Of a DNA stretch of 64,000 bases, positions 2,462 to 40,620 are shown piece by piece. The stretch lies in assembly GCA_017545865.1 (NCBI GenBank), contig JAFWXO010000008.1:116017-180016 (forward strand), written 5' to 3'. Source of the stretch: Clostridia bacterium (GTDB taxonomy: Bacteria > Bacillota > Clostridia > Christensenellales > Borkfalkiaceae). Position numbers and translations under genes: made by a program. The notes under the pieces were generated by a model. It made no database searches. It worked only from the letters and a program-made list of their open reading frames with translations, and had not been told where the DNA came from. Each line of letters begins with the position of its first letter. Positions within the stretch are counted from its first letter, which is position 1.

Positions 2462-2562
2462 TTTAGCCCATGGCTAAAAGTTAAATGCAACCTGCGGTTG
2501 CGCTAAATTACTGCGTAGCTAAATGTTGCTAACGCAACGCTAAATGCAAAACATAGTTTTGC
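2462..2562 (-). repeat. array of five short palindromes with GCTAAAT spacers, upstream of atpD
   Basis: On the + strand: TTTAGCC-CAT-GGCTAAA (2462-2478), GCAACC-TGC-GGTTGC (2487-2501), TAC-TGC-GTA (2509-2517), GTTGC-TAAC-GCAAC (2525-2538) and GCAAAAC-ATA-GTTTTGC (2546-2562). The last three gaps are exactly GCTAAAT, and the first is AGTTAAAT. Stem sequences differ while complementarity is kept. It lies inside the presumed atp transcript between atpG and atpD. Not CRISPR: the constant part is the 7-bp spacer and the variable part is palindromic. Confidence 0.85.
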
Positions 2563-17501: not shown

Positions 17502-17534
17502 AAAACACGCTACGACAAGTAGCGTGTTTTTTTT
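17502..17534 (+). terminator. terminator of the DUF5107 gene
   Basis: AAAACACGCTAC, loop GACAA, GTAGCGTGTTTT with further T residues. Confidence 0.93.
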
Positions 17535-17540
17535 GAGTTA

Positions 17541-17611
17541 AATCCTTGCGGATTAAATCTGACGGCAGTCAGATGAAATCGCTCCGCGATGAAATCTTGC
17601 TTTTGCAAGGT
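17541..17611. repeat. array of four short palindromes with (G)AAATC-type junctions
   Basis: AATCC-TTGC-GGATT (17541-17554), ATCTGAC-GGCA-GTCAGAT (17557-17574), ATCGC-TCC-GCGAT (17578-17590) and a CTTGC-TTTT-GCAAG stem at 17596-17609. Junctions are AA or GAA placed before ATC, so each hairpin starts within an AAATC repeat. Stem sequences are unrelated to one another. Same design as the arrays near atpD and guaA. Confidence 0.8.
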
Positions 17612-17628: not shown

Positions 17629-18027
17629 TTTAAGACGTTAATAACGAGCAAGGCGGTTATTTTAGACAAAGTACGCGTACTCTTAGTCTATTTCAACTAT
17701 TTTTAGCCCTTAGAAGCAAGCAAGACAAGGCACACAAAAAACCGCGCGGATACAACTATTTTAAGACGTTAATAACGAGCAAGGCGGTTATTATAGACAA
17801 AGTACGCGTACTTTTGTACGGAATCTTTGGCTATACCTACTCATAGTTTATTCCAACTACTTTTAAGACGTTAGAAGCAAGCAAGACAAGGCACACAAAA
17901 AACCTTGCTTGATAGAATATTTTAAGACGTTAATAACAAACAAGGCGGTTATTATAGACAAAGTACGCGTACTTCTGTACGGAATCTTTGGCTAAATAAC
18001 CGATTTGCGAAGTTAGTAACGGATTAA
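17629..18027. repeat. tandem/nested cluster of interspersed TTTAAGACGTTA elements next to rnpB
   Basis: Element starts TTTAAGACGTTA at 17629, about 17760, 17861 and 17920. The core GACAAAGTACGCGTACT occurs three times (about 17664, 17793, 17957). A second module GAAGCAAGCAAGACAAGGCA occurs at about 17713 and 17874. Only the last unit (17920-18027) is complete, with ends TTTAAGACGTTAATAAC and, in reverse complement, TTTAATCCGTTACTAAC; it stops 1-2 bp from the 3' end of the RNase P RNA. No gene is visible in this 530-bp gap. Confidence 0.8.
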
Positions 18028-18028
18028 A

Positions 18029-18366
18029 AGAGATGGTCTGTAAGCCGAGTTCTGTCATTTAATACGGCTATCTATCTAGGCCTACCGTTACCGATAGGCT
18101 CGAGCGAATAAAACGAGCGGAGAGTCGTAGCGCCTATAATCTCCGTTCCTATCTTGCTTCGGGTGGGGTTTACACTGCTCCCTGCGTTACCGTAGGGACG
18201 GTGAGCTCTTACCTCGCCTTTTCATCCTTACAACTTGCGTTGCGGTAGTTTTCTGTTGCACTTTCCTTGAAGTCACCTTCACCGGCCGTTAGCGCGGCAC
18301 CCTGCTACGTGAAGCTCGGACTTTCCTCGTGAATATAAATTCCCGCAGCCGTACAACCATCTCTTT
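18029..18366 (-). ncRNA. rnpB: RNase P RNA (bacterial)
   Basis: Catalytic RNA that trims tRNA 5' leaders. On the minus strand the conserved 5' P4 region GAGGAAAGTCCGAGC (about 18318-18332) and 3' region ACAGAACTCGGCTTACAGACC (about 18035-18055) are present. P1 closes between AGAGATGG at the 5' end and CCATCTCT at the 3' end, which sets the boundaries. Length about 338 nt fits the common type. Ends are accurate to a few bases. A repeat element abuts the 3' end. Confidence 0.96.
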
Positions 18367-24042: not shown

Positions 24043-24052
24043 GAAAGCCCTC

Positions 24053-24178
24053 TCCTTTTCCTATCCGGACTATACCGTCGGTTACGGAATTTCACCGCAT
24101 CGGGGCGCTCATAAAATATTTAAGCGCCTTTGCAGACTTTACTGCCGGTGGGGAGTTTCACCCCGCCTCAAAGAACGC
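24053..24178 (-). promoter_or_regulatory. FMN riboswitch (RFN element)
   Basis: Minus strand carries the conserved RFN blocks: TTTGAGGCGGGGTGAAACTC, CCCCACCGGCAGTAAAGTC, GCGGTGAAATTCCG, ACCGACGGTATAGTCCGGAT, and a closing AGGAAAAGGA that pairs with TTCTTT at the 5' side. Senses FMN and controls ribU by transcription termination. It begins about 10 bp after the stop of the DeoC-like gene. Confidence 0.96.
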
Positions 24179-24188
24179 TTTTATTGTA

Positions 24189-39397: not shown

Positions 39398-39501
39398 TCA
39401 TTACTTTGTAATGAGTGATATGCAAACTGCGTTTGCGTGATATGTTGGCGTTGCCAACGTTATATTCGCCTTATGGCGAGTGATATGCAAACTGCGTTTG
39501 C
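39398..39501 (+). repeat. array of five short palindromes with GTGATAT spacers between guaB and guaA
   Basis: TCATTAC-TTT-GTAATGA (39398-39414), GCAAAC-TGC-GTTTGC (39422-39436), GTTGGC-GTT-GCCAAC (39444-39458), TCGCC-TTAT-GGCGA (39466-39479), GCAAAC-TGC-GTTTGC (39487-39501). Spacers GTGATAT, GTGATAT, GTTATAT, GTGATAT. Four different stems, one used twice. It fills almost all of the 140-bp gap; the guaA ribosome-binding site AGAAGG follows at about 39521. Confidence 0.9.
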
Positions 39502-39534
39502 GTTATTGATTTTTATTAAAAGAAGGTAAAATTT

Positions 39535-40518
39535 ATGGTACTTAGCAATAAAAGACCAGATGATATGGCTCGTATAACCACCAAAGAACTTGCTCAAAAA
39601 TTTATAGACGAGCAAATTAAAGAAATTAAACAACAAGTTGGCGATAGAAAGGTTTTACTCGCTCTTTCGGGCGGGGTTGACTCGTCAGTCGTTGCAGCGT
39701 TACTTATCAAAGCAATCGGCAAAAACCTTTACTGCGTGCACGTTAACCACGGCTTGCTTAGAAAGGGCGAACCCGAACAAGTAGTTAAAGTTTTCCGTGA
39801 CGAAATGAACGCTAACCTTATCTACGTTGACGCGGTTGATAGATTCTTAGATAAACTTGCCGGCGTTGACGAACCTGAAAAGAAAAGAAAGATTATCGGC
39901 GCTGAATTCATTAGAGTTTTTGAAGAAGAAGCAAGAAAACTTGAAGGCATTGATTTCTTAGCGCAAGGAACTATTTATCCTGACATCTTGGAAAGCGGTC
40001 CTGTTAAAGCGCACCACAACGTTGGCGGTCTTCCCGATGATCTTCAATTTGAACTCGTTGAACCTATTAGACTTTTGTTTAAAGATGAAGTTAGACTCGT
40101 TGGTAGCGAACTTGGTCTTCCAGACGGTATGGTTTACCGTCAACCCTTCCCAGGTCCTGGTCTTGGCGTAAGATGCCTTGGCGCAATCACTCGCGATAGA
40201 CTTGAAGCGCTTAGAGAGTCCGATGCTATTTTGCGTGAAGAATTCGATAAGAACAGACTTTGCGATAAGGTATGGCAATATTTCACCATTGTTCCCGATT
40301 TCAAAACGGTTGGCGTTAAAAACGATCTCCGCTCTTACGAGTGGCCCGTTATCATCCGCGCGGTAAACACCGTTGACGCGATGACCGCAACTATCGAAGA
40401 AATTCCTTACGATATTTTGCATCATATTACCGAAAGAATTACTCACGAAGTTAAAGGCGTTAACAGAGTTTTATACGATTTAACACCAAAGCCGACCGGC
40501 ACTATTGAGTGGGAGTGA
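39535..40518 (+). CDS. guaA: GMP synthase, ATP-pyrophosphatase subunit only
   Basis: 327 residues. PP-loop [16 protein letters not shown], then [50 protein letters not shown] and the terminal KPTGTIEWE, all GuaA C-terminal blocks. The usual 190-residue glutamine amidotransferase domain (about 510 residues in total) is absent, as in the archaeal two-subunit enzyme. It would aminate XMP using free ammonia or ammonia from a separate GuaA glutaminase subunit not seen here. ATG at 39535; a second ATG 10 codons on is possible. Confidence 0.95.
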
Positions 40519-40620
40519 TTTGATTTTATCAAATCAGTTATGATTGCCTAACGGCAAGTTATGATACTCGCTAATATTTTTAGAATAAAAATACCATTTC
40601 GCGCCAACTTGCTTGGCGCG
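40516..40620 (+). repeat. array of four palindromes starting on the guaA stop codon
   Basis: TGATTTGAT-TTT-ATCAAATCA (40516-40536, first three bases are the stop), spacer GTTATGA, TTGCC-TAAC-GGCAA (40544-40557), spacer GTTATGA, TATTTTTA-GAA-TAAAAATA (40575-40593) and CGCGCCAA-CTTGC-TTGGCGCG (40600-40620). The last stem has no clear T-run, so termination is uncertain. Confidence 0.8.

Follow-up and report, generated by a model that had tools for sequence, protein, structure and literature searches.

What is a row of hairpins whose stems change from one unit to the next and whose linker stays constant, and does it serve the genes on either side of it? This question was raised by the gap between guaB and guaA in the 64-kb stretch of clostridial DNA analysed here (the window). 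Sequence reading and a hairpin scan placed five perfect hairpins of four distinct sequences at 39398-39501 on the + strand. Hairpin 1 (TCATTAC-TTT-GTAATGA, 39398-39414) is followed by a GTGATAT linker (39415-39421), hairpin 2 (GCAAAC-TGC-GTTTGC, 39422-39436), a second GTGATAT (39437-39443), hairpin 3 (GTTGGC-GTT-GCCAAC, 39444-39458), a GTTATAT linker (39459-39465), hairpin 4 (TCGCC-TTAT-GGCGA, 39466-39479), a third GTGATAT (39480-39486) and hairpin 5 (39487-39501), which repeats the GCAAAC arm and TGC loop of hairpin 2. The first-pass annotation, made from the letters alone, had described this layout exactly, in its coordinates, its five hairpins of four sequences, its three GTGATAT and one GTTATAT linkers and its recurrent GCAAAC-TGC-GTTTGC unit. 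It had also set CRISPR aside, and rightly so: a CRISPR array needs a conserved repeat and variable spacers, whereas here the linker is constant and the hairpins vary.

Local context and other arrays in the window

The 5' neighbour of the array is guaB (IMP dehydrogenase, 484 aa, Pfam PF00478; 37940-39394, +). Its 3' neighbour (39535-40518, +; Pfam PF00958) is a guaA-type GMP synthase of 327 aa, composed of the ATP-pyrophosphatase and C-terminal parts only and displaying no glutaminase match in Pfam. The array ends short of the ribosome-binding site AGAAGG at 39521-39526. The 327-aa glutaminase-less synthase directly followed guaB in all eight genomes of the genus that were read; at loci L047, L049, L052, L054 and L059, the SGGVDS motif was located 674-737 nt past guaB, which leaves room for a glutaminase domain.

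Clusters of at least five perfect stems (≥5 bp) within 104 nt were restricted to two sites of the window, this array and 17505-17609, and the maximum in 30 Markov copies of the window was three stems (19 copies) or four (11 copies). The array folded as RNA with a z of -5.6 relative to shuffles, and its opposite strand, folded as single-stranded DNA, gave a z of -6.4. In the RNA fold, hairpins 2 and 5 were able to pair mutually over a distance. Hairpin 5 received one weak terminator-like call at 39485-39503 (one found, against 0.6 in shuffles). Neither inverted element ends (see below) nor an enclosing terminator were found at the guaB-guaA array.

Related rows occurred elsewhere in the window. 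A mini-array composed of a hairpin, GTTATGA, TTGCCTAACGGCAA and GTTATGA (40516-40564, +) starts directly at the guaA stop codon, and TTGCCTAACGGCAA doubles as a hairpin of GTGATAT arrays. Another array occupies 2462-2562 (+) and comprises five hairpins, one with a stem of just 3 bp. Its linker GCTAAAT (the first being GTTAAAT) differs from GTGATAT and is uniform inside that array. The array is followed by GTGGATGTTTTCTTTATTT, as is also seen beside arrays L016 and L021. At 17541-17609 (+), four hairpins stand in a row with linkers of the GAA/GATGAAATC type, downstream of a 683-aa ORF and of a terminator (17505-17527). Repeated TTTTAAGACGTTA..AGCAAG sequences come after this row and again near 2600, with a similar form in L016 and L017, and four hairpins stand nearly back to back, with no linker, at 2787-2862. 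Rfam further recognised a class A RNase P RNA (18025-18364, -) and an FMN riboswitch (24049-24179, -); a tRNA search of the 64 kb found none.

The guaB-guaA gap in related genomes

The gap was compared in the eight genomes of the genus that displayed orthologous guaB then guaA, including the window genome (G000); the ninth, G006, was left out as it harbours only a distant guaB homologue, and the gap of G005 was read from a contig beginning inside guaB. Five hairpins were counted in G000 and two each in G003 and G002, and the remaining five gaps (G007, G004, G005, G001 and G008) were short and hairpin-free. Hairpin 1 was found again in G003 with the loop TAT, and in G002 with a C.A mismatch adjoining the loop, beside a decayed linker. 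The second stem of G003 reads GCAATA..TATTGC in place of GCAAAC..GTTTGC, a compensatory change. According to the first-pass annotation, absence from close relatives or uncompensated decay would mark the array as a neutral insertion. Absence from five of eight gaps largely bears this out; G003 does display a compensated stem, and G002 the decayed linker and the mismatch.

The array, present in three gaps and absent from five, thus undergoes turnover inside the genus. A guaBA-specific role, which the first-pass annotation had put forward as one possibility, is unlikely as judged from these gaps and from the many unrelated genes that similar arrays adjoin.

Arrays in other genomes and the match to Gut-1

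Two GTGATAT words 10-30 nt apart occurred 18 times in the 1.59-Mb G000 genome, against one occurrence of the reversed-pattern control. The pattern was recorded in 23 of 41 genomes and was commonest in G000, G005, G007, G011, G033 and G036, although a number of the occurrences in other genomes do not form hairpins. Among GTDB species genomes, at least 118 stretches chosen solely by three GTGATAT linkers were found; of the 118 listed, both inter-linker spans were self-complementary (≥3 bp) in 72 and not in 46. For 50 of these 72 a title was listed, and all 50 titles name Clostridia, Clostridiales, Oscillospiraceae, Ruminococcus, Firmicutes or Bacillota.

A perfect stem of at least 4 bp was displayed by 258 of 430 distinct GTGATAT-to-GTGATAT spans, compared with 0.6% in shuffles; the spans came from 213 loci, some of which were found via the Gut-1 model (see below), which favours hairpins. 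Stems of at least 3 bp were present in 296 of the 430 spans and comprised 209 distinct hairpins with 131 distinct arms. Likewise, stems of at least 4 bp occurred between other linkers (GTGAAAT, 33 of 57 spans; GTTATAT, 16 of 30; GCTAAAT, 4 of 7), and control 7-letter words yielded 0-3 spans each. The pattern first noticed at guaB-guaA, variable stems that are each exactly complementary around a constant linker, was upheld by this survey and by the covariation described below.

Arrays of this kind adjoined unrelated genes at many loci. Between G000 and the other genomes, no orthologous array locus other than guaB-guaA was found under a rule of alignments >350 nt; when 10 array loci of G000 were compared with 30 foreign ones, only two alignments exceeded that length, both between copies of the element described in the next section. 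Several contigs of G011 and G033 end inside elements (L027, L028, L032, L421), so that short-read assemblies probably understate their number. Virus-borne spread was considered and rejected: viral contigs displayed at least 120 three-linker stretches, of which six had two self-complementary spans and only three (L230, L244, L295) were judged by eye to be real arrays, among the matches listed. With GCTAAAT as linker, viral contigs gave at least 120 raw pattern stretches.

The first-pass annotation could name no described family for the array. Yet Rfam family RF01706 (Gut-1), whose consensus consists of three hairpins with GUGAAAU linkers, matched 39413-39491 (+) with 50.4 bits, marginally above the gathering score of 50; as the score exceeds the cut-off, the array has a named family. 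Gut-1 was published as a noncoding RNA, and from the human gut only as far as the accessible part of the paper goes (Weinberg et al. 2010, PMC2864571). In the literature consulted, the family is described only as an RNA. Judging by titles, that paper was the only one on this RNA among the matches listed, and a search on terminator-loop elements and palindrome arrays returned nothing on the present element by title and start of abstract, again among the matches listed. Of 151 genomes of the order, 38 gave an RF01706 match, which exceeded the cut-off in 27; one of 14 named control genomes also gave one (E. coli, under cut-off). When 19 array loci were scanned with Rfam, nine Gut-1 matches appeared in eight loci; eight of the nine fell on the first half-array of the element, the ninth being a second match in L136. 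From such comparisons, Gut-1 looks like the three hairpins of the element's array core, i.e. a piece of a larger whole.

A larger element with inverted ends

Complete elements measured about 300-415 nt and were composed of a forward array with GTGATAT linkers, a reverse array with ATATCAC linkers, and inverted ends. They start with a left end hairpin (CCGAGTCCCTACAAGGGATT...), followed by TAAATAAATCC, which is able to pair with a later GGATTTATTTA. About three GTGATAT hairpins and then about three ATATCAC hairpins form the middle. An AT-rich terminator-like hairpin precedes the right end, which repeats the left one imperfectly and in inverted orientation. Twelve such pairs of terminal inverted repeats, 307-415 bp apart, delimited complete type-A elements in four genomes; in seven genomes, none of the matches listed was an inward-facing pair spaced by 0.5-5 kb. 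Allowing up to three mismatches, the type-A left end was counted seven times in G000, six in G001, four in G011 and 11 in G033, and was not found in G002, G003, G005 and G007. Copies of G003 bear a different end (L346, L348).

Five copies from G000 and three from G011, a genome of another genus, displayed 78-91% identity over matched pieces of at least 200 nt, and type-B copies were 97-98% identical between G011 and G033, the latter belonging to another family. Sixteen further loci (GTDB scan and G036), selected for outer arms of at least 9 nt, differed in sequence and ranged from 343 to 412 nt; by eye, all but L163 followed the same plan. Nested insertions, namely a GCCGAGCAACTTTAGTTGC..GCCAACTGCC module and extra hairpin-linker units, were observed in the arrays of several of the copies L419, L420 and L425-L428, and L033 displayed tandem hairpin-linker units as well.

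The array of the window, devoid of both element ends and terminator arms, was termed a solo array. From its linker, hairpins and Gut-1 match, we infer that it derives from this element.

Elements in terminator-like stems

At locus L022 of G000 (G000:C23), the element sits between CATACCCTT and GGGTATGTTTTTT. In G003, G002 and G007, this site holds an empty terminator whose arms are identical and whose loop measures 4 nt; G005 displayed a terminator with a compensated stem and G004 one with another stem (the comparison left out G001 and G006, and G008 gave no match). The junction is compatible with a short target duplication or a 2-bp core. At L025 (G000:C32), the outer arms AAAACGCG/CGCGTTTT are identical to those of the empty terminator of G002, and at the L023 site relatives carry empty terminators with stems unlike the G000 arms. 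The element was missing from the L023 and L025 sites in all eight other genomes of the genus; a flank search for L024 returned short matches only.

Among type-A copies with both flanks, 13 of 20 displayed outer arms of at least 7 bp and a T tail, as did 18 of 380 pairs of mismatched flanks. These 13 outer stems differ, except for two alike (L031, L346) and three similar ones, so that part of the similarity could be due to the element itself. In a wider set of 104 array clusters, outer arms of at least 11 nt enclosed 17 (control mean 1.09, maximum 5 in 200) and arms of at least 9 nt enclosed 22 (control 2.03). By the rules used, no outer stem was found for seven of the 20 type-A copies, nor for 87 (≥11 nt) or 82 (≥9 nt) of the 104 clusters. 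Divergent genes flanked 7 of 84 classed array-bearing gaps, a depletion relative to the 55 of 194 counted for other gaps (p 1.4e-4). No orientation preference was observed in co-directional gaps (12 vs 9 complete elements, 14 vs 12 single-sense arrays). The two bases preceding the type-A left end were TA in 12 of 25 copies and AA in 11.

Stem complementarity and strand

In 14 aligned type-A cores with six hairpins, 94.1% of 473 cells paired, compared with 84.1% in shuffles, and two-sided change was seen at 14 of 34 pairs. Cells, which count sequences and not events, comprised 52 two-sided and three one-sided changes and 28 unpaired ones, 24 of the latter in the partly misaligned helix 5. The covariation score (0.306 vs 0.132) was reached by none of 500 shuffles; further pair types were fewer than in shuffles (18 vs 22.1). 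Stems were perfect in 295 of 336 classed cases from 343 loci. That complementarity itself is kept or created, as the first-pass annotation had supposed, is upheld by these two-sided changes and by the predominance of perfect stems. In template switching during replication, one arm can be repaired from the other. The scarcity of one-sided changes is compatible both with strong selection for the folding of one strand and with such arm repair.

Two signs bear on the strand concerned. On the GTGATAT strand, which is also that of Gut-1, single mismatches were G.T in six cases, A.C in 21 and other in 14 (p 0.006 for 6 vs 21, a rough value because the units are related); an earlier, smaller set of 301 stems gave 8, 16 and 14, respectively. 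Loops on the ATATCAC strand were GNA in 90 of 180 triloops and GNNA in 82 of 133 tetraloops, compared with three and none on the other strand. Both the scarcity of G.T and the type of loop thus favour the strand opposite to that of the Rfam model.

These observations weigh on the view that Gut-1 is an expressed structured noncoding RNA, as first published, with the guaB-guaA copy as its gene or a 3' UTR form. Such an RNA would account for the model match, the strong stem covariation and the low z of the RNA fold. It would also predict tolerance of G.U on the modelled strand, which failed, G.T being rarer there than A.C, and it is the opposite strand that carries the GNA/GNNA loops (172 vs 3), again contrary to prediction. 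Furthermore, the number of hairpins varies, both senses occur within one element, orientation relative to transcription is unbiased and five of eight orthologous gaps lack the array; we regard this view as unlikely. Slightly less credible still is a cis-acting mRNA device of the guaBA operon, whose hairpins would halt 3' exonucleases or determine the proportion of guaB to guaA. The array is intra-operonic and its last hairpin weakly terminator-like, as such a device would have it, but it is missing in five of eight congeners with the same gene order and the same arrays adjoin unrelated genes. Most likely, the array has no dedicated regulatory role at guaB-guaA and is tolerated between the stop codon and the ribosome-binding site.

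Candidate mobilisers

The 20-bp left end CCGAGTCCCTACAAGGGATT also terminates an element carrying a large serine recombinase in three genomes. The full gene was found in G006 (553 aa, with Resolvase, Recombinase, Zn ribbon and DUF4368 matches) and fragments of it in G033 and, where a contig ends, in G000. One end of the recombinase element is known and equals the type-A 20-bp end; in the three genomes (L431, L434, L460), it abuts an apparent terminator 3' arm and T run. The recombinase match was not found in G001 and G011, though type-A copies are present there, and the three linker-pair matches of G006 included no clear hairpins. As judged from the shared end, the recombinase element is a candidate mobiliser. 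In the vicinity of arrays (126 loci, 2515 ORFs), no transposase or recombinase was recognised by eye in the 25 largest ORF clusters.

IS630-type DDE transposases display a preference for TA targets. A classical MITE mobilised by a DDE transposase of this kind, or by a stem-loop-targeting IS1182-type enzyme such as IS1272, is a serious if doubtful alternative, consistent with the inverted ends and with TA in front of about half of the type-A left ends. IS1272 is reported, in the accessible part of its description, to target inverted repeats or stem-loops (PMC5678879). Against both stand the lack of inward-facing end pairs 0.5-5 kb apart in the seven genomes, among the matches listed, and of any transposase recognisable in the large ORF clusters near arrays. 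REP/BIME-like repeats moved by a Y1 (HUH) RAYT transposase would likewise be intergenic palindromes in arrays, and Y1_Tnp matches were present in three array-rich genomes (G098, G106, G118). Yet the domain occurred in none of nine genomes of the genus and in 11 of 41 overall, and it was missing in the array-rich G033, G036, G079, G084, G124, G144, G157 and G171, which contradicts such an origin unless the enzyme was lost or falls outside the Pfam model. Moreover, stem sequence is not conserved, the 209 hairpins and 131 arms counted above including no conserved palindrome; REP/RAYT was rejected as highly improbable.

Proposed identity and significance

We consider it probable, with some reserve, that the array of the window is a solo copy of the palindrome-array core belonging to a mobile element that is dispersed in gut Clostridia, non-autonomous and dependent on structure, and that Gut-1 corresponds to three hairpins of this core. 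Recurrence at unrelated loci, inverted ends, paired arrays, terminator-loop sites and two-sided stem changes, all established by sequence comparison, argue for it. As to the mobiliser and the origin of complementarity, we infer a scheme in which the element would insert at the centre of a terminator dyad via a recombinase guided by symmetry or by DNA folding. The stems would remain complementary because copying, recognition or tolerance concerns the folded strand, and/or because one arm is restored from the other by template switching, and arrays may lengthen or shorten by gain and loss of hairpin-linker units.

A wider proposal, put forward tentatively and somewhat short of an even chance in our eyes, is that of a structure-defined class of mobile elements: gene-less, landing at the symmetry centre of terminators, probably moved in trans with the large serine recombinase, and having complementarity created or restored as its units diversify. 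Gut-1 would then be its half-array and not an RNA gene, with the Rfam strand as the less likely one.

The finding matters since a catalogued RNA of unknown function looks like part of a roaming element, and an orphan Rfam family would thereby gain a concrete, testable identity. It also offers an example of a repeat whose stems turn over with base pairing retained, and suggests that terminators serve a mobile element as landing sites at which it causes little damage. Array-rich genomes, together with the empty terminators of sister species, provide natural before/after pairs for tests on the origin and persistence of perfect palindromes.

Comparison with known systems

REPs form sequence families, most of them with a GTAG or CGTC tag. 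The present arrays share with REPs and BIMEs the clustering of short intergenic palindromes, but their stems vary within one array and no Y1 transposase accompanied them in the genus genomes searched. RUP, BOX, Correia and ERIC are MITE-type bacterial repeats with conserved sequence; like these, the element appears non-autonomous and intergenic, with inverted ends and hairpin potential, and differs in array stems that turn over with complementarity kept.

A large serine recombinase can act in trans on elements that have attachment sites but no integrase, and so mobilise them; the identity of the 20-bp end with that of the recombinase element recalls such systems, with the difference that only one end of the recombinase element is known here. 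As for IS1272/IS1182, the accessible part of the IS1272 report (PMC5678879) likewise describes a target picked by inverted-repeat structure rather than by sequence; IS1272 has its own transposase and replaces the target hairpin, whereas the gene-less element described here keeps both terminator arms.

Gut-1 itself likewise has variable, covarying stems, in three hairpins, and a constant GUGAAAU-type linker, and the array of the window scores just over its cut-off. In contrast to the human-gut noncoding RNA as published, these hairpins here belong to an element of about 300-415 nt that is dispersed in many clostridial genomes, adds a reverse array and inverted ends, and occurs in both orientations.
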